Of a stretch of 29,568 nucleotides of DNA, positions 15,431 through 24,501 are shown piece by piece; position 1 is the stretch's first letter; each line of letters begins with the position of its first letter. The notes under the pieces are model-generated. The model was given only the letters and a program-made list of their open reading frames with translations. It was not told the DNA's origin and searched no databases. Made by a program: the position numbers and the translations under genes. This stretch comes from a virus. The stretch spans positions 1 to 29,568 of the IMG/VR virus record IMGVR_UViG_3300032249_000022. One strand, 5' to 3'.

Positions 15431-17830
15431 TCAAGTTCTCCCGAAATTAGTAGACAGGTTTTTGTTGGCGTATTGGTTCGCCGCCCAAATGGTGTTTGAA
15501 CTTCCTAGCAAACGATCCTCAAACGACTTAACGTCAATGGCATTAATGTAATTGTTTGTGACGTTAGTTGTGCTGCCCATGTTGCTCAAAGCATGGTTTG
15601 GAATAATTGTTCCGGCAGTTTTAGGAACAAACAATTCTGGACCACGTTCACCAACAATACTTGGGCGACCAACAGGCGGCTCTCCACCATCTGCAAAACC
15701 ACTTATTTTTGCATATTCAAACTGTGACATATTTGTGCCGCCACCACCAGATACGGCGCCAAATAACCCTCCAAGAAATTTCATTGCAGCAGCCTTCATC
15801 TGGATTGCAATCAAATCTTGAATGACGCTACGAGCCAAGTCCTTCATGCTTAACTTGCCCGTTTTAACAAAGTTGTCAATGGCTGAAGACAAGCTACCAA
15901 ACACGCTGTCAAACACTTGCTGCGTCCGCTTGGCAGACTCATCCATAGTCACAAACATTTTTGCAATTGCTTCTTGGCGATCAAGCTCTTTCAATACAAA
16001 TGGGTCTTGACCCTCAACCTCTTTTCGCTTACGAGCGTATTCAAGCGAAATCTGAGCAAGTCTTTGCTCTTCCTCTGTCGCATAAATCATCTTGTATTTC
16101 AAATCAAGAGACTCGCGTTGGTACTCCATGTCGCGTGTTTGATTTTGTGCATTAACAACCAAAGCGGCTCGGCGGTTTTGCTCCATAGCCCAAGCTGCAT
16201 TAAATTCTTGTTCTGCTGCTTGCTCATCGTTATATTGAGCAATCACCCTTTTCATGTTTATCTGTCTTTTTTTCTCCGCAAGCTCAGTTTCAGCAGCAGT
16301 AACTTTGTTCTTGTAAATCTCAAGGTTTTGTTTTGTAGCTCTACCATCTTCTTGTTTATTCTTTTGACGCATTTCATCATAAGCATCAACAATCTTTTTA
16401 GCAGATTCAAGTTCCAGTTTTTCAATTTCATTAGCGCCAATTTGTGCGTATCTAAAAGCTGTATCTATTTTTGATTTTTGTAATTCATTTTCTTTTGCTG
16501 ACAACATTCCTTTATATTTATCGTATTCAGTAATTTCTTCTTTGCCCGAAGGCGGGACTACTGATTTTTCAGCGGTCTTAATTATTTTTTCAAGTTCAAC
16601 TCTACGCTCTTTAAGAATTTGAAGTCTTGCTCTTTCTTGCTTTGTATACTCTGGATTACCTGTGGATTTACTTAAAGTAAATTCAAGCGCCTCAATTTCA
16701 TCATTGACCTTTTTTAAGATACCAACATTAGTAGATGGGCCAGCAACGGCTTCTTTAAGAGCCGCCCAAAACCTACTCATTGCATTTTTTGCTTTATCCC
16801 AAAGCTGTTCCATATCACCCAAAATTCTTTTTTGAGCTTCCAATTTTCCGTTTAATATATTAGCCGCAAGTTGTGCCGCCTCTTGTTGCTTGCCAGCCTT
16901 TTCCAATGCTTCAATTTGTTTATATTGAGCCAAAGTCAAGAAATTCATTTTTTCGTTAAGTGTTTTTGCTCCAGCAGCAGTACCATTAAGACCAGACATT
17001 AACGCTTCAGCCGCTTGTTTTCCGTCAACACCAGCAATCTTTGAATAAGTAAGAACTGCTGTTGTAACTGCCTCAAGTGAAGTGCTAGTAAATTTTCCAG
17101 AAGCAACAAGAGCATCAAGTGCGCTTGTTGCATTGCCAATAGTAGTTTTTGCGGAATCCGCAACTGACTTAGACATATCAACAAGTTTGTTTGCTGTCAA
17201 ACCCGCATAATTCCCAGTCAAAGTCAAATTGTCTTGGAGCTTATCAAACTCTTGATGGGCTTCATATGCAGCATATGCTACGACTCCAAGAGTAGCGGCA
17301 ACAGCACCAAGGCCGACACTAAACGGAGTGAACAAAGTGCCGATGGCTTTGAACATGTTGCCAACGCCGCCCATGACATCTTTTAATTGACCACCTTGTT
17401 GCAAGATGGCAATGAAAGGGCTTTGACCAGAAGCAATTTGCGTAAACAAATCTGTTGTCTGATAAGTCAACTGAATCTTCTGTTGCTCATTCAATTTAAA
17501 CTGAGCGCCAGCAGCATTCTTTGTTGACATCGCCATCTTGTCGTAAGCAGCCGCTTGCTGCAACAAACGATCCTTCATATCCTTTGTGGCGTTCATGAAC
17601 TTACCCGAGGTAACTTCACGCTGGATTAACTCTACTTTTGTAAGAGTCTTGCCGTAATCTTCTGTTGCATGAGTAAGCGCCTTTAACTCGCCAGCAGCAG
17701 AGTTTGTATCTCGCCTAATAGCATTTTTCAGCTTTGCATTTTCCGAAATGGCTTTGTCAATAGACGCAGTAAATTCAGCCGTGTCCAAGCCAAGGACAAC
17801 ACCAAGTCGAGCAATGTTTTGTGAGGCCAT
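15431..17830 (-). CDS. tail tape measure protein
   Basis: The 799-aa protein has the two landmarks of lambda-group tape measures. An N-terminal block at about 120-155 reads QTTDLFTQIASGQSPFIAIL then QQGGQLKDVMGG. The C-terminal lambda-H-type block reads VFDSVFGSLSSAIDNFVKTG then KLSMKDLARSVIQDLIAIQM, at about 640-690. Between them are a hydrophobic stretch (GLGAVAATLGVVAYAAYEAH, about 172-191) and long coiled-coil regions. It ends with GGEPPVGRPSIVGERGPELF, a common terminus. It sets tail length and may pass into the host envelope. At about 0.15 nm per residue it predicts a tail near 120 nm (inference). The start overlaps the gp10-like stop as TAATG. Confidence 0.95.
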   Translation of the reverse strand: MASQNIARLGVVLGLDTAEFTASIDKAISENAKLKNAIRRDTNSAAGELKALTHATEDYGKTLTKVELIQREVTSGKFMNATKDMKDRLLQQAAAYDKMAMSTKNAAGAQFKLNEQQKIQLTYQTTDLFTQIASGQSPFIAILQQGGQLKDVMGGVGNMFKAIGTLFTPFSVGLGAVAATLGVVAYAAYEAHQEFDKLQDNLTLTGNYAGLTANKLVDMSKSVADSAKTTIGNATSALDALVASGKFTSTSLEAVTTAVLTYSKIAGVDGKQAAEALMSGLNGTAAGAKTLNEKMNFLTLAQYKQIEALEKAGKQQEAAQLAANILNGKLEAQKRILGDMEQLWDKAKNAMSRFWAALKEAVAGPSTNVGILKKVNDEIEALEFTLSKSTGNPEYTKQERARLQILKERRVELEKIIKTAEKSVVPPSGKEEITEYDKYKGMLSAKENELQKSKIDTAFRYAQIGANEIEKLELESAKKIVDAYDEMRQKNKQEDGRATKQNLEIYKNKVTAAETELAEKKRQINMKRVIAQYNDEQAAEQEFNAAWAMEQNRRAALVVNAQNQTRDMEYQRESLDLKYKMIYATEEEQRLAQISLEYARKRKEVEGQDPFVLKELDRQEAIAKMFVTMDESAKRTQQVFDSVFGSLSSAIDNFVKTGKLSMKDLARSVIQDLIAIQMKAAAMKFLGGLFGAVSGGGGTNMSQFEYAKISGFADGGEPPVGRPSIVGERGPELFVPKTAGTIIPNHALSNMGSTTNVTNNYINAIDVKSFEDRLLGSSNTIWAANQYANKNLSTNFGRT

Positions 17831-18321
17831 TATTTTCTCCGGCGTTCCAGTTTCTTGGCGTAGTCAGCAATGCCAACACCCAAAGCAGATTTTAATTCAG
17901 ATAGCACGTTATTAATGTTCTCTTGCAAAGCAACGCGCAGAAAAGGTTTTGCTGCCCTTTTTGATGTGCCAAATTCGTTAGCCAGCGACACAGCACTTTT
18001 CTTAACAGACACTACGGCAATTGCACCGTCAGTCTCATTTACATACTCACTTCGCTTGTCTTTCTCGCTTGGGATACGAGCATCAAGACGAATCGTATCT
18101 TTCATGTGAATTGGGTTTTTGCCATCTCTAGGCTTATCCCCAACAGGTGCGCGAGTTATTGCTGTTTGCAAAACTGCCTGCATTGCAATTTTGGCAGCAG
18201 GCACAAGGGTATTTCTGGCAACCAAATCCCCACGAAAGCCTTCTGCCATTTGTTTTAGCTGTTGCTCAAATTCAGCAAAGCCTTCCAGCTTGACAGACTT
18301 GCTTTCGGGAACATAAGCCAT
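17830..18321 (-). CDS. HK97 gp10-like head-tail/neck protein
   Basis: The 163-aa protein matches the HK97 gp10-like family: VKLEGFAEFEQQLKQMAEGF near the start, an APVGDKPRDG loop, and the diagnostic C-terminal block LANEFGTSKRAAKPFLRVAL. In HK97-type phages this family belongs to the head-tail joining or tail-completion proteins and is normally encoded before the tail tube. Here it is encoded between the tail assembly chaperone and the tape measure, coupled to both (one base from the upstream stop, TAATG overlap downstream). The family call is strong. The displaced position may mean a different virion role or an inherited gene order of this lineage. Confidence 0.85.
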   Translation of the reverse strand: MAYVPESKSVKLEGFAEFEQQLKQMAEGFRGDLVARNTLVPAAKIAMQAVLQTAITRAPVGDKPRDGKNPIHMKDTIRLDARIPSEKDKRSEYVNETDGAIAVVSVKKSAVSLANEFGTSKRAAKPFLRVALQENINNVLSELKSALGVGIADYAKKLERRRK

Positions 18322-19347: not shown

Positions 19348-19554
19348 TTACTCTGTTGTGTCAACTTCTTCAATGACTACTACGGGAGCAGTCACGTTAT
19401 ATTTTCTCAGCAACGCCAAGGCAATGGCTTCTGCTGTGTCTGGTTTAGCAGTGGCATTTGCAAGTTCATCAGCGTCCACAACCATGCCACGGGCAGCAAG
19501 TTCAATGTCGCCGTAAATGGTCACAATTGCGTTAATTGCATCAATCAATTTCAT
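19348..19554 (-). CDS. 68-aa protein of unknown function after tail tube genes
   Basis: The start at 19554 is chosen because it forms an ATGA overlap with the stop of the second tail-tube gene. An in-frame ATG 54 nt upstream would lie inside the conserved end of that gene. The 68-aa product (MKLIDAINAIVTIYGDIELA at the N-terminus, AEAIALALLRKYNVTAPVVV near the end) looks like a small alpha/beta or helical domain; no family is recognised. Tight coupling to the tail tube suggests a tail-assembly role. Confidence 0.6.
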   Translation of the reverse strand: MKLIDAINAIVTIYGDIELAARGMVVDADELANATAKPDTAEAIALALLRKYNVTAPVVVIEEVDTTE

Positions 19555-20072
19555 GTGTTGTTCGACCAGCCAAACTGGTTGCCCCGTGGATGAATAGTGA
19601 AGGTGCATTTTGCTTCAGCGCCCGGAGCAGAATCAATTTGGAATTGACCCACGCGACCGTTGAAGGCATAAGCCACCGTGTTTGCGCCCTCAACTGCTGC
19701 AACCACAAAAGTGCGGTCAACAACACCAGAATAAGCATCAGCACGAATCTGAAGCAAAGCAGCATCAGCAGGATTCCAAGCAGCCGTGATAGTCAAACTT
19801 GTAGGAGCCGCTTGTACAGGGATTTTGTCGCTTTGACGAGAGCCAGCAACGCCGAAACTTGCAACCGCATCATCAATACCAAAAGCAGGAATTGCCTCAA
19901 CAGGAAGTGCAATGCCGTTTGCGCCAGTGCCGTTAGCCGAAGCGCCAACAATAGCCGCCACTTGTGCAGTCCAAACGGCCAGGTTAGCCGTTGACAAAGG
20001 CGATGGAGTTGCAGCCGATTGCATCCACAACGATGCGGCAAAACCGGGAAGAACTTTTGCAGGAATAGCCAT
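19551..20072 (-). CDS. second tail tube protein (paralogue)
   Basis: The 173-aa protein is a close paralogue of the product encoded just upstream. Over the last 118 residues my hand alignment gives about 101 identities, including PVEAIPAFG, AGSRQSDKIPVQAAPTS, RADAYSG and AFNGRVGQFQIDSAPGAEAK. The N-terminal 55 residues differ and carry an extra Ala/Gly-rich loop (GASANGTGANG). Tail-tube subunits form stacked hexameric rings, and the size, position before gpG and beta-rich sequence fit that role. GGAG is seven bases before the start and the gene begins nine bases after the first copy. Whether it is a second tube subunit, a special ring at one end, or a variant carrying a surface loop is not known. 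Confidence 0.8.
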   Translation of the reverse strand: MAIPAKVLPGFAASLWMQSAATPSPLSTANLAVWTAQVAAIVGASANGTGANGIALPVEAIPAFGIDDAVASFGVAGSRQSDKIPVQAAPTSLTITAAWNPADAALLQIRADAYSGVVDRTFVVAAVEGANTVAYAFNGRVGQFQIDSAPGAEAKCTFTIHPRGNQFGWSNNT

Positions 20073-20081
20073 GATGACTCC

Positions 20082-20576
20082 TTATGCGTTGTTGGACCAA
20101 CCGTACTGGTTGCCACGGGGATGAATGGTAAATGTCGCCTTGGCTTCAGCGCCGGGTGCAGAATCAATCTGGAACTGGCCTACACGCCCGTTAAAGGCGT
20201 AATAAACGATGTTTGAGCCTTCGGTAGCCGAAACTACAAAAGTGCGGTCAATCACGCCAGAATAGGCATCAGCACGCATCAACAGCAAGTTGGTGTCAGC
20301 AGGGTTCCATGCGGCTGTAATAGTCATGGAAGTTGGAGCAGCCTGAACAGGAATCTTGTCAGATTGACGCGAACCAGCCACGCTAAAAGAAGCAACGGCA
20401 TCGTCCATGCCAAAAGCAGGGATTGCTTCGACAGGAATAATGTTGCCACTAACAGCGAGAGGGGCCACGCTTGCGACCAAGGACAACTGAGCAATTGTCA
20501 AAGGAGTAGGTGCGGCTCCGGGTTGTGCGTACAACGCCGCGCTAAAACCAGGGAGAACTTTGTTTGGTAAAGCCAT
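20082..20576 (-). CDS. major tail tube protein (first copy)
   Basis: This 164-aa protein lies between tail-terminator-like and chaperone genes, the usual place of the major tail protein of siphophages. It is beta-rich with a conserved core (SVAGSRQSDKIPVQAAPTSM, ITAAWNPADTNLL, DRTFVVSATEG) and ends ATFTIHPRGNQYGWSNNA. Glycine and alanine predominate at the N-terminus. It should polymerise around the tape measure to form the tail tube. AAGGA lies eight bases before the start after a 37-nt gap, longer than most here. The neighbour at 19551-20072 is a near-copy. Direct sequence family is not named with certainty; role rests on position, size and duplication pattern. Confidence 0.8.
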   Translation of the reverse strand: MALPNKVLPGFSAALYAQPGAAPTPLTIAQLSLVASVAPLAVSGNIIPVEAIPAFGMDDAVASFSVAGSRQSDKIPVQAAPTSMTITAAWNPADTNLLLMRADAYSGVIDRTFVVSATEGSNIVYYAFNGRVGQFQIDSAPGAEAKATFTIHPRGNQYGWSNNA

Positions 20577-20613: not shown

Positions 20614-21033
20614 TTAAGCAGGAATGTCAATGGTGCAATCTAAGAAGATTTGCGCCATCTTTTCCTCATCGTTATAACTGTTATACAGCCACATAACATC
20701 AGCCTTTGCAATGTAAAAGCCTTCTGCTGGACTGCCAAGAATTCCGCTGTACCCATGCAAGGCTTGCAGAATCTGATTTGATATTGTAAAACCATCTTCA
20801 ATCTGTTGAGTGAAAATAGAAATCTGAAATACAGGACGGTCAATGCCTTTGTTGCTTTGCTGTGTGCCTGTATATACAGGTTGATGCACATTTCGGAGCA
20901 TCCAAGTAATAAATTTAGGCTCTGTTGCAAAGTTGCGGTTAAAAGCCGCATACACAGGCACAGGCGTGACAATGTTAGCCAGTTGATACTGGATAGCTTT
21001 GCCGTAAACAACAGGGTTTAATTGAGTTGCCAT
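20614..21033 (-). CDS. tail terminator-like protein
   Basis: The 139-aa protein precedes the tail-tube genes and follows the stopper-like gene, the location of tail terminators (lambda gpU or SPP1 gp17 type). Sequence features agree: an N-terminal helix and loop (LNPVVYGKAIQYQLANIV), then RPVFQISIFTQQIEDGFTIS, a second helix (NQILQALHGYSG) and a final strand pair (SYNDEEKMAQIFLDCTIDIP). Terminators cap the finished tail and join it to the head. ATG overlaps the previous stop as TAATG. The family match is weak by eye, so the call is mainly positional. Confidence 0.6.
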   Translation of the reverse strand: MATQLNPVVYGKAIQYQLANIVTPVPVYAAFNRNFATEPKFITWMLRNVHQPVYTGTQQSNKGIDRPVFQISIFTQQIEDGFTISNQILQALHGYSGILGSPAEGFYIAKADVMWLYNSYNDEEKMAQIFLDCTIDIPA

Positions 21034-22059: not shown

Positions 22060-23094
22060 TTAAACACCTACCAAGCGAATGCCAGCAAAAGGGTCGCGCA
22101 CAGTGCTTACCATACGTTTTTCCGCATACAGCGTAATGAAACCAGGGCTTGTTTGTTCCATTGCTTGAATGGTCATTTCTTCAACGTCAGCAATAGTTAC
22201 AAAACGAGGCCAGTTAGCCAAGTAAATGTTAAATTTGCCAGCGCCTGTGGTCTGGATGTTTGGATTAGCAATGACAGGAAAGCCAAAAATGTTTTTAACA
22301 GCGCCGCCATCATCATCACCAACTTCAGCAAATTGTTTAATATTGGGTGCTGCTGTAGGGCCAAGGTTTCGCAATTCATGAATTGTTTGCGGGTGCATCA
22401 TCCAAGCAGTACCGGGCAAATTCCAGTATTGAGCAGGGAACAGCCGCACCATATCAGTAATGTCGCCATATGTAACCGCTGCGGCAGCTTGTGTGTAAGT
22501 CGCAATTGAATGGATACCGTTTGTAATTGCTGTGCCACTTGTACCAAAAGCGGATGTAGCAGCACTTGTGTACATATTCAGGCCACGCAAACCGTTAGTT
22601 GCGCCGTTAATTGTGGTCGTAGAACCAGCCTGATCGTTGTTCAGCACCATTGACGCGCCCTCAATTTGTGCGAATTCCAGCATCAAATCTTCAACAAGCG
22701 TTTCGTTTAGGTAGTTTACATCTGACATAACCGCTGAACGCACAGGCAGTTGAGCCGTAATCACTCGCGTTGGCAATTGCCAGATAGATGTGTTGATGTT
22801 TGGCGAACCGCTATCAGGCGTGAACGTATATCCAAACGGGTTTGTTGAGTTTGTCGCATTACCTGTCTTGGCAACAAACTGTATGCTTGAGCCAGATGCA
22901 GGAATAACACGCGACATCTCACGAATTGGATTTGCAAAACGCAATGCAGCAAATGCGTTATCAAAAAATGTCCGACCACCAACCCCGTCACCAGAGCCTG
23001 TGATAGCAGATGCTTCGCGCAAGTCAATCGTGACTTTATCGCCAGTTTCCAATGTTTGCTTAATTCCAGACAGGATGCGTTCGGTAATGGTCAT
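22060..23094 (-). CDS. second HK97-fold capsid protein, no delta domain
   Basis: The 344-aa protein is a clear paralogue of the major capsid protein upstream. From residue 27 (EASAITGSGDGVGGR) to the end it aligns with residues 106-449 of that protein. Shared blocks include FAALR-x-ANP, GSS-x-QF-x-x-KTGNA, TSIWQL, EFAQ, NNDQA, TNGLRGL, AFGTSGT and PGFIT-x-x-x-EKR. It lacks the first 80 or so residues, the coiled-coil delta (scaffold) domain. AGGA is six bases before the ATG. The upstream intrinsic terminator should lower its expression. A minor capsid role, for example at pentameric vertices as T4 gp24 does, fits; an alternative shell protein is also possible. This is inference from paralogy. 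Confidence 0.88.
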   Translation of the reverse strand: MTITERILSGIKQTLETGDKVTIDLREASAITGSGDGVGGRTFFDNAFAALRFANPIREMSRVIPASGSSIQFVAKTGNATNSTNPFGYTFTPDSGSPNINTSIWQLPTRVITAQLPVRSAVMSDVNYLNETLVEDLMLEFAQIEGASMVLNNDQAGSTTTINGATNGLRGLNMYTSAATSAFGTSGTAITNGIHSIATYTQAAAAVTYGDITDMVRLFPAQYWNLPGTAWMMHPQTIHELRNLGPTAAPNIKQFAEVGDDDGGAVKNIFGFPVIANPNIQTTGAGKFNIYLANWPRFVTIADVEEMTIQAMEQTSPGFITLYAEKRMVSTVRDPFAGIRLVGV

Positions 23095-23117
23095 ATCAGT
23101 TCCTAAATTATTGGCAC

Positions 23118-23145
23118 AAAAAGGAGGGGGTTATTAGCCCCCTCC
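23118..23145 (-). terminator. intrinsic terminator between the two capsid genes
   Basis: On the minus strand GGAGGGGG, loop CTAATAA, CCCCCTCC form a perfect 8-bp GC-rich stem followed by TTTTT. It starts seven bases after the major capsid stop and precedes the second capsid ATG. In a one-direction operon it should act as a partial terminator or as an mRNA 3' stabiliser, keeping the major capsid transcript abundant, as after gene 10 of T7. Confidence 0.9.
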
Positions 23146-23151
23146 GTTTTA

Positions 23152-24501
23152 TCAGTTAGCTGTGCCTGTCGAGCGATAGCGAACCAGTGCGTTTGGATCA
23201 CGCACAGATGTTGCCAAACGCTTCTCACCAAAGAAGGTGATAAAACCTGGCAGTGTCTGGTCGTAACGGCGCATAACCATGTTCAAACGATCAATGATCG
23301 TGTGAGCGCGGCTCCAATCACCAAAGTACATTGGGTACAGGCTAGTAGTACCAGCAGCACCAGCAGTAGCTTGGCTAGGATTGTCCAAATAACGGTTCAT
23401 CACAACGTCAAAGCCAAGCATTTGACCAATGATGCCATCAGGGTTCAACGACTCAACAGAGTTGAAGATTGGACGACCGTTGGTGTCTTGCAGACCACGA
23501 ATTGCTTGAGCCAAGATTGGGCTAACCATAAACTTGGTGGCAGGAGTCCAATACTGCTGTGGCAAGGCGTAAATCGTGTTGATAACGTCTTTGTATTGGA
23601 TGTTGTTAGCACCAACAGTGTTGGCGTTGGTTGTGATCTGGTCATAAGTAGCCAACGAGTGCAGACCGCTTGAAGAACCAGTACCGCTAGTACCAAAAGC
23701 AGCAGCAGAAGTTGTGCCACCAGCGTAGGTAGAGTTAGCACCAGCGTACTGGTCCAAACCGCGCAGACCGTTAGTACCACCGTATGGGTTACCAGCGGAT
23801 TGAGCAGCCTGGTCATTGTTCTGCACCATCGACAGGGCTTCTGCCTGGGCAAATTCTGCCAGCATGTCGTCAACAACGTTGGCTTCCAGACCATCAATGT
23901 CATCCAAAGCCGCAGTACGGATTGGGAACTGAACGTTCAGGTCTTGCAAAACCAATTGCCAGATGCTTGTGTCTTCAGTAGTGGTTGCACCGTTGTTCTG
24001 AATCGTATAGCCCCATGCCACACCAGCGTTGCCGGTCTTGACACGGAATTGATAGCTAGAACCATCGGTAGCCACAGTGCGAGACAGACCGCGCATGGGG
24101 TTAGCCAAACGCAGAGCAGCAAACACTGGATCGTAGCCAGTACGACCACCCTTGCCATCACCGCCAGCAGTCAAAGCAGAGGCTTCTTTCAGGTACGCAT
24201 CCATTTGGGCTTCGTCTGCAAAAATTTGCAGTTCTTTTTCCAAACGGTTGTTGCCTTTGTAGAAAGCAGTCAGTTGCTCACGCACCGAACGGTTCACATC
24301 TTGGCGAACAGTCTTAGCGGGTGTGCGAATGAACTCAGGCATGTTGATAGAAGCAACTTTGGCTTCCAGAGCAGACACCATTTCTTGCATTTCGGCTTTA
24401 ACAGCCTCAACAGCAGCAGGAATTTTGGCTTCAACAGCCACGATGCTTTCAGCTTGTTTAGCTTCAATAGCATCCAATTTTTCGAGGATAACTTGGGACA
24501 T
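23152..24501 (-). CDS. major capsid protein, HK97 fold with delta domain
   Basis: The 449-aa protein follows the prohead protease and is built like HK97 gp5. Residues 1-55 are a coiled-coil delta domain rich in Ala, Glu and Lys (LEKLDAIEAKQAESIVAVEA). Residues 56-105 are a linker, and the shell domain begins near EASALTAGGDGKGGR (106-120). Shell signatures include RTGYDPVFAALRLANPMRGL, TSIWQLVLQDLNVQFPIRTA, PQQYW and LPGFITFFGEKRLATSVRDP. The delta domain is expected to serve as scaffold and be removed by the protease, probably in the 80-110 region; the exact site cannot be read. A shortened paralogue follows. The start is three bases after the protease stop, with AAAGGT upstream. Confidence 0.94.
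   Translation of the reverse strand: MSQVILEKLDAIEAKQAESIVAVEAKIPAAVEAVKAEMQEMVSALEAKVASINMPEFIRTPAKTVRQDVNRSVREQLTAFYKGNNRLEKELQIFADEAQMDAYLKEASALTAGGDGKGGRTGYDPVFAALRLANPMRGLSRTVATDGSSYQFRVKTGNAGVAWGYTIQNNGATTTEDTSIWQLVLQDLNVQFPIRTAALDDIDGLEANVVDDMLAEFAQAEALSMVQNNDQAAQSAGNPYGGTNGLRGLDQYAGANSTYAGGTTSAAAFGTSGTGSSSGLHSLATYDQITTNANTVGANNIQYKDVINTIYALPQQYWTPATKFMVSPILAQAIRGLQDTNGRPIFNSVESLNPDGIIGQMLGFDVVMNRYLDNPSQATAGAAGTTSLYPMYFGDWSRAHTIIDRLNMVMRRYDQTLPGFITFFGEKRLATSVRDPNALVRYRSTGTAN

Follow-up and report, generated by a model that had tools for sequence, protein, structure and literature searches.

Tandem paralogous tail tube genes with matched putative stacking surfaces in a siphophage-type viral genome: candidates for a mixed tail tube

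Analysis of a viral metagenome record of 29568 bases (hereafter the window, i.e., the whole stretch of DNA that was analyzed) revealed two adjacent genes, A and B, encoding paralogous proteins of the lambda gpV type that probably co-polymerise into one mixed non-contractile tail tube with two alternative outer surfaces. We assign this reading a probability of roughly 0.7. Tail tubes are usually regarded as homopolymers. If the reading is true, abundant freshwater phages represent a natural case of a homomer becoming a two-component fibre, found again in dozens of genomes, for which the single-copy relatives provide controls. This would in turn open the questions of where the sequences need to agree for A and B to co-assemble and what benefit a second outer surface provides. 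In addition, co-assembly of paralogues could then be inferred from sequence alone, namely where amino acids agree within each genome despite saturated synonymous sites.

The gene pair, its predicted fold, and its distribution

On its minus strand, the window carries a structural module of the siphophage type, which encodes two capsid proteins of the HK97 type, connectors, a terminator-like protein, A and B, small proteins, and a tape measure protein of the lambda type. Within this non-contractile tail module, A and B are located between the tail-terminator-like gene upstream of A (20614..21033, minus strand; phrog_347, E 0.0034) and the downstream gene of the tape measure protein (15431..17830, minus strand; 799 aa; PF06791, E 3.6e-50). 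Gene A (20082..20576, minus strand) encodes a tail tube protein of 164 aa with a short O-loop, and gene B (19551..20072, minus strand) a paralogous tail tube protein of 173 aa with a longer O-loop. A comes first and adjoins B; from the stop of A to the start of B, the coding strand reads TAAGGAGTCATCATG. Herein, the A stop codon overlaps the ribosome-binding site of B (TAAGGAGTCATC; 20073..20084, minus strand). A Shine-Dalgarno-like core was found upstream of A in 80/80 relatives and upstream of B in 73/80. The open reading frames and the tight spacing described in the original prediction are confirmed.

Comparison of the two proteins over their final 118 residues gave exactly 101 identical positions, matching the approximate number predicted earlier. 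The full-length BLASTP alignment runs end to end and is far above chance (123/172 identical, E 2e-88). Divergence is concentrated in residues 16-46, with scattered copy-specific sites also in residues 96-125 in the C-terminal half. The N-terminal 45-55 residues had been described as different, which holds for residues 16-46 and fails for the very start of the proteins: because 11 of the first 15 residues are identical, the N-termini are diverged and not unrelated. An Ala/Gly-rich loop had been expected in the second gene only and corresponds to VGASANGT (B residues 42-49; 19926..19949, minus strand), an insert without counterpart in A and in single-copy relatives, the core of which is conserved among the B proteins of relatives.

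Sequence profiles match both proteins only weakly (phrog_158 major tail protein, E 2e-4 for A and 1e-3 for B), and the sole Pfam match of A was a sub-threshold one to Phage_tube_2. AlphaFold2 monomer models were calculated from input alignments of 70 (A) and 68 (B) relatives. Lambda-type tail tube chains were the top matches of the A model (Foldseek E 1.6e-4 to 2.2e-4, Z about 10) as well as of the B model (E 1.2e-5 to 1.9e-5, Z about 11). Both models predict the tail tube fold, consisting of a beta-sandwich, a flanking helix, and a long loop, the latter being of low confidence (pLDDT below 50 at A 53-79 and B 66-88). The best full-length structural matches were lambda gpV (PDB 7t2e, 8k36) and the YDC107 tail core (9mfe), with Z about 10 to 11.7. 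The likeness to lambda gpV includes the low-confidence long loop in the monomer models and the O-loop and flanking helix following in the same order. Lambda differs in that its single gpV gene encodes an Ig domain at the C-terminus, whereas A and B are two full-length paralogues devoid of it. Judged by modelled fold and gene position, A and B are lambda gpV-type siphophage tail tube proteins.

In lambda, the E-loop (residues 50-78) is flexible in the monomer, becomes ordered in the tube, and joins the ring-ring contact, while the outside of the tube is made up of the O-loop and helix (PMC10721106). In solved tubes, contact between rings is provided mostly by the long loop, which lacks order in monomers (PMC9022992). 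In phage JBD30, the neighboring disc takes up a hinge loop between its loops 217-227; the “two major tail proteins” of that paper are two copies of one protein (PMC11445458). Since a PDB sequence profile search up to E 10 returned no alignable relative, a residue-level mapping onto gpV is impossible and the interface was assigned by the order of structural elements. Because the models are monomeric and the stacking loop is of low confidence, the interface positions are given by analogy with distant structural relatives, which share about 12-18 percent identity. On these grounds, the ring-stacking interface would comprise A residues 47-95 (long stacking loop and flanks; 20292..20438) and 132-148 (hairpin turn region; 20133..20183), with B residues 56-104 (19761..19907) and 141-157 (19602..19652) as the respective counterparts. 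The copy-specific O-loop regions, A residues 16-46 (20439..20531) and B residues 16-55 (19908..20027; all six on the minus strand), are predicted to lie on the outer face by analogy with lambda, as are the copy-specific sites of residues 96-125.

Searches of IMG/VR and of genome contigs yielded 104 distinct A-B locus pairs, with the order A then B in all of them, as well as 59 distinct single-copy loci that extended far enough downstream. In phylogenetic trees, B represents one clade except for one long-branch member. Pooled dN/dS, determined from 24 independent close pairs, was 0.084 for A and 0.094 for B, i.e., both are under strong purifying selection. Taken together, the distribution, the B clade, and the purifying selection identify A and B as an old and maintained pair, not a fresh duplication. 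The analysis of synonymous versus non-synonymous divergence had been suggested with the original prediction; with values of about 0.08-0.09 in both copies, it supports the expectation that both genes are used. B copies with long branches and unusual reading frames (L064 8495-9218, L078 3945-4482) are possibly frameshifted or degraded, or else assembly errors. Close relatives (L218-L222) are found on metagenome-assembled-genome contigs labelled Alpha-, Beta-, and Gammaproteobacteria, Rhodocyclaceae, and Crocinitomicaceae, leaving the host uncertain.

Matched blocks and copy-specific, predicted outer faces

Identity values within and across genomes divide the proteins into two parts. In the putative stacking blocks (residues 47-95 and about 132-148), A and B of the same genome are the most similar pair, with an identity of 0.922 in comparison to 0.826 for A-A, 0.837 for B-B, and 0.821 for A versus the B of another genome. 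In the outer face, the identity between A and B is 0.624 within and 0.607 across genomes, while A-A and B-B reach 0.813 and 0.827, respectively. The same division is seen in the trees. Based on the outer-face columns alone, B forms one clade with a support of 100, whereas in the tree based on the stacking columns, A and B are intermingled (30 copy-label changes) and a supported set combines 34 A with 34 B.

On the level of single sites, A and B carry the same residue more often than allele frequencies predict, namely in 99 percent of the genomes at site 79 (prediction 47 percent), in 99 percent at site 85 (58), and in 100 percent at site 142 (78). Evaluation of mutual information revealed the homologous B column as best partner for 11 of the 16 variable A columns in residues 47-95 and for 8 of 11 in residues 132-164, while this applied to none of the 13 variable A columns in residues 1-46. 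An independent-pairs test on starred branches offered too few pairs per site for significance alone; consequently, a tree-based likelihood test of dependence was used on the best tree, which was built on 672 nucleotide columns of A and B themselves. For 13 sites, this test gave a median LR of 32.8 for homologous A-B pairs and of 5.1 for non-homologous pairs of the same sites. Among 30 independent close genome pairs, 24 double changes were counted in the two blocks together, where 3.4 would be expected; in 19 cases, both copies had changed to the same residue. Residues 1-46 showed no coordinated changes to the same residue in these pairs. Coordinated change arose independently fewer times than this raw count indicates, given that recombination can pass pairs matched beforehand from one lineage to another.

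The tandem capsid paralogues of the same genomes served as a control. In the window, these are two HK97-type major capsid proteins of 449 aa and 344 aa (22060-24501, minus strand; both PF05065). Their identity was 0.403 within and 0.402 across genomes, and the homologous column was the best partner in 0/129 cases, i.e., no matching of the A/B kind was found in this pair. Based on the capsid pair, residues 1-46, and the non-homologous site pairs, an artefact of the shared genome (composition, phylogeny) was rejected. The capsid pair itself is present in 47/47 two-copy and 26/26 single-copy loci with the flanking genes in view.

In principle, the A-B matching could arise if both copies must fit a common third partner. 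The columns of the neighboring proteins were compared in this respect: at 11-13 of 13 sites, the A stacking sites track B above any terminator, connector, capsid, gp10-like, chaperone-position, or tip column. At site 134, the terminator-like protein ranks directly after B in co-variation, and it also belongs to the top proteins at sites 133 and 79. This co-variation possibly marks a docking surface for the last tube ring, and linkage may contribute to it because the terminator gene adjoins A.

A probable mixed tube and its competing explanations

Among the options put forward in the original prediction, a mixed tube or a surface variant agrees best with the matching of the blocks and the copy-specific outer face. 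We infer that the A/B matching reflects contact within one tube and that both proteins are present in virions. In such a tube, one stacking interface would be common to A and B, with the long loop docking on the hairpin turn and the N-terminal arm of the next ring, so that A could sit above or below B and vice versa. The outer faces, i.e., the O-loop and flanking helix, would have diverged between the copies, and B would thus show a different, slightly larger surface. B would be placed between tube subunits on both sides, with A and B differing in what they display outward. The difference of the outer faces presumably serves decoration, host-surface contact, or tube mechanics. A stricter version, which we consider a tentative proposal, is an ordered two-component tube with A and B in defined alternating positions (within the ring or ring by ring), a long-term co-evolution of the interface, specialised outer faces, and a longer tail.

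A special ring at the tail end, already named in the original prediction, would place B at the tip or neck, comparable to the tube initiators of contractile injection systems, with A building the remaining tube. Terminal tube paralogues do exist: those of the Afp and PVC baseplates form the first tube layer, and chains of these baseplates are among the structural matches of A and B. Since B would touch A in this arrangement too, some matching is expected. However, a terminal ring would need only one B stacking face fitted to A, and both putative stacking blocks of B track A equally, for which reason it fits less well. Moreover, the face directed toward a non-tube partner should have turned copy-specific, and it is the outer O-loop and helix that did so instead. 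The ribosome site of B being as good as that of A does not suggest a protein made for six copies, either. Overall, an end ring appears unlikely.

A and B might also form separate homotypic tubes, i.e., alternative tails, with surfaces matching via a common terminator, tip proteins, and tape measure. The co-variation of the terminator with sites 133, 134, and 79, which exceeds that of most other neighbors, is in line with this possibility, but A tracks B above every terminator column at 13/13 sites. In addition, single partner proteins touch the end rings only, and yet the entire loop co-varies; the genes are tightly spaced and look co-transcribed, with no switch seen between A and B. We therefore regard separate tubes as rather improbable.

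Concerted evolution by gene conversion between the copies, in the absence of a functional A-B contact, had been raised as the origin of the C-terminal conservation. It would account for the mosaic phylogeny, in which the outer columns group by copy and the inner ones by genome lineage. Four lines of evidence were examined, namely the four-fold sites by block, the protein-versus-synonymous relation of orthologues, the codons at coordinated changes, and local tracts. In the matched blocks, the four-fold sites of A and B are identical at 0.367, which is near saturation (random expectation 0.312, cross-genome 0.343) and far below the 0.51-0.65 of orthologue pairs with equal protein identity. Within the window, pS between A and B was highest in the matched regions (0.733 and 0.727), compared with 0.586 in residues 1-46. 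At coordinated changes, A and B mostly use different codons; the A-B codon identity near these changes was 0.422 versus a background of 0.427, and local tracts were not found. Furthermore, conversion without selection would also have reached the capsid pair or residues 1-46. These data contradict the suggested conversion and make it highly improbable as the cause of the matching. A very old conversion at the base of lineages may have occurred, in which case something has kept the residues matched since.

Similarly remote is the idea that one copy left the virion for another role, e.g., as a decoy for host defence, which is prompted by the DSR2 defence system sensing tail tube proteins (PMC10981675) and opposed by the tube fold kept by both copies, the purifying selection in every block, and the co-evolving stacking surfaces.

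Known tubes, relatives, and tape measure length

Mixed tubes as such are already known. In phage SPP1, gp17.1 and gp17.1* build one tube from two forms of the major tail protein in a ratio of 3:1, sharing a common core and differing in their outer parts (PMC8718954; PMC9022992). The SPP1 forms originate from one gene, with a ribosomal frameshift adding a C-terminal FN3 domain to an identical core. In contrast, A and B, known here from sequence, are encoded by separate genes; their differences lie in the O-loop and helix, and their co-evolution has been long. A frameshift origin as in SPP1 was ruled out, A and B being complete genes with their own starts and stops. An extra C-terminal FN3 or Ig domain is likewise absent, as both proteins end at an equivalent core position (164 and 173 aa). 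According to the title of PDB entry 9vne, the type VI secretion system of Bacteroides fragilis contains an Hcp2-Hcp3 heterohexamer, i.e., two tube-fold paralogues in one ring; this system is a contractile secretion system, and its fold match to A/B reaches a Z of 7.8 only. Bacteroidales injection systems resemble the A/B locus in carrying two tube genes per cluster but are contractile and possess a sheath, and the available text of the report does not mention a co-varying interface (PMC7394362). Two major tail proteins are also listed, without detail, in the announcement of Gordonia cluster DJ phages. A survey of the mostly open-access literature found nothing further on duplicated major tail proteins and no account of tandem paralogous, co-evolving tail tube genes co-assembling in siphophages. 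Next to SPP1 and, by the PDB title, Hcp2-Hcp3, the tandem co-evolving siphophage pair would represent a further variant of the mixed tube, its co-assembly being probable.

The only cultured relative found is the Methylophilaceae phage P19250A, which carries a single tail tube copy. Its gene 10 (KX815270, 8597-9094) is annotated as hypothetical protein and represents a tail tube protein of the A/B family, with an identity of 71 percent to A and of 63 percent to B. P19250A shares the protein family, the gene neighborhood, and the two tandem capsid genes with the window; it differs in its single tail tube gene, its short O-loop, and a shorter tape measure of 594 aa.

This difference in tape measure length extends to the wider set of relatives, ranging from 644 to 986 aa in those with A and B (n = 58) versus 533 to 668 aa in the single-copy ones (n = 41). 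At 799 aa, the tape measure of the window likewise exceeds the single-copy lengths. Within the gene order in which the gp10-like gene comes first, the medians were 673 (A and B) versus 588 (single-copy), with p = 2e-10 calculated without phylogenetic correction. The longer tape measure would agree with B helping to lengthen or stiffen the tail, although this is a correlation only. Two gene orders were observed in this region: the gp10-like gene follows the chaperone-position genes in the window (17830-18321) and precedes them in P19250A and most single-copy relatives. A-B pairs are found in both of these orders.
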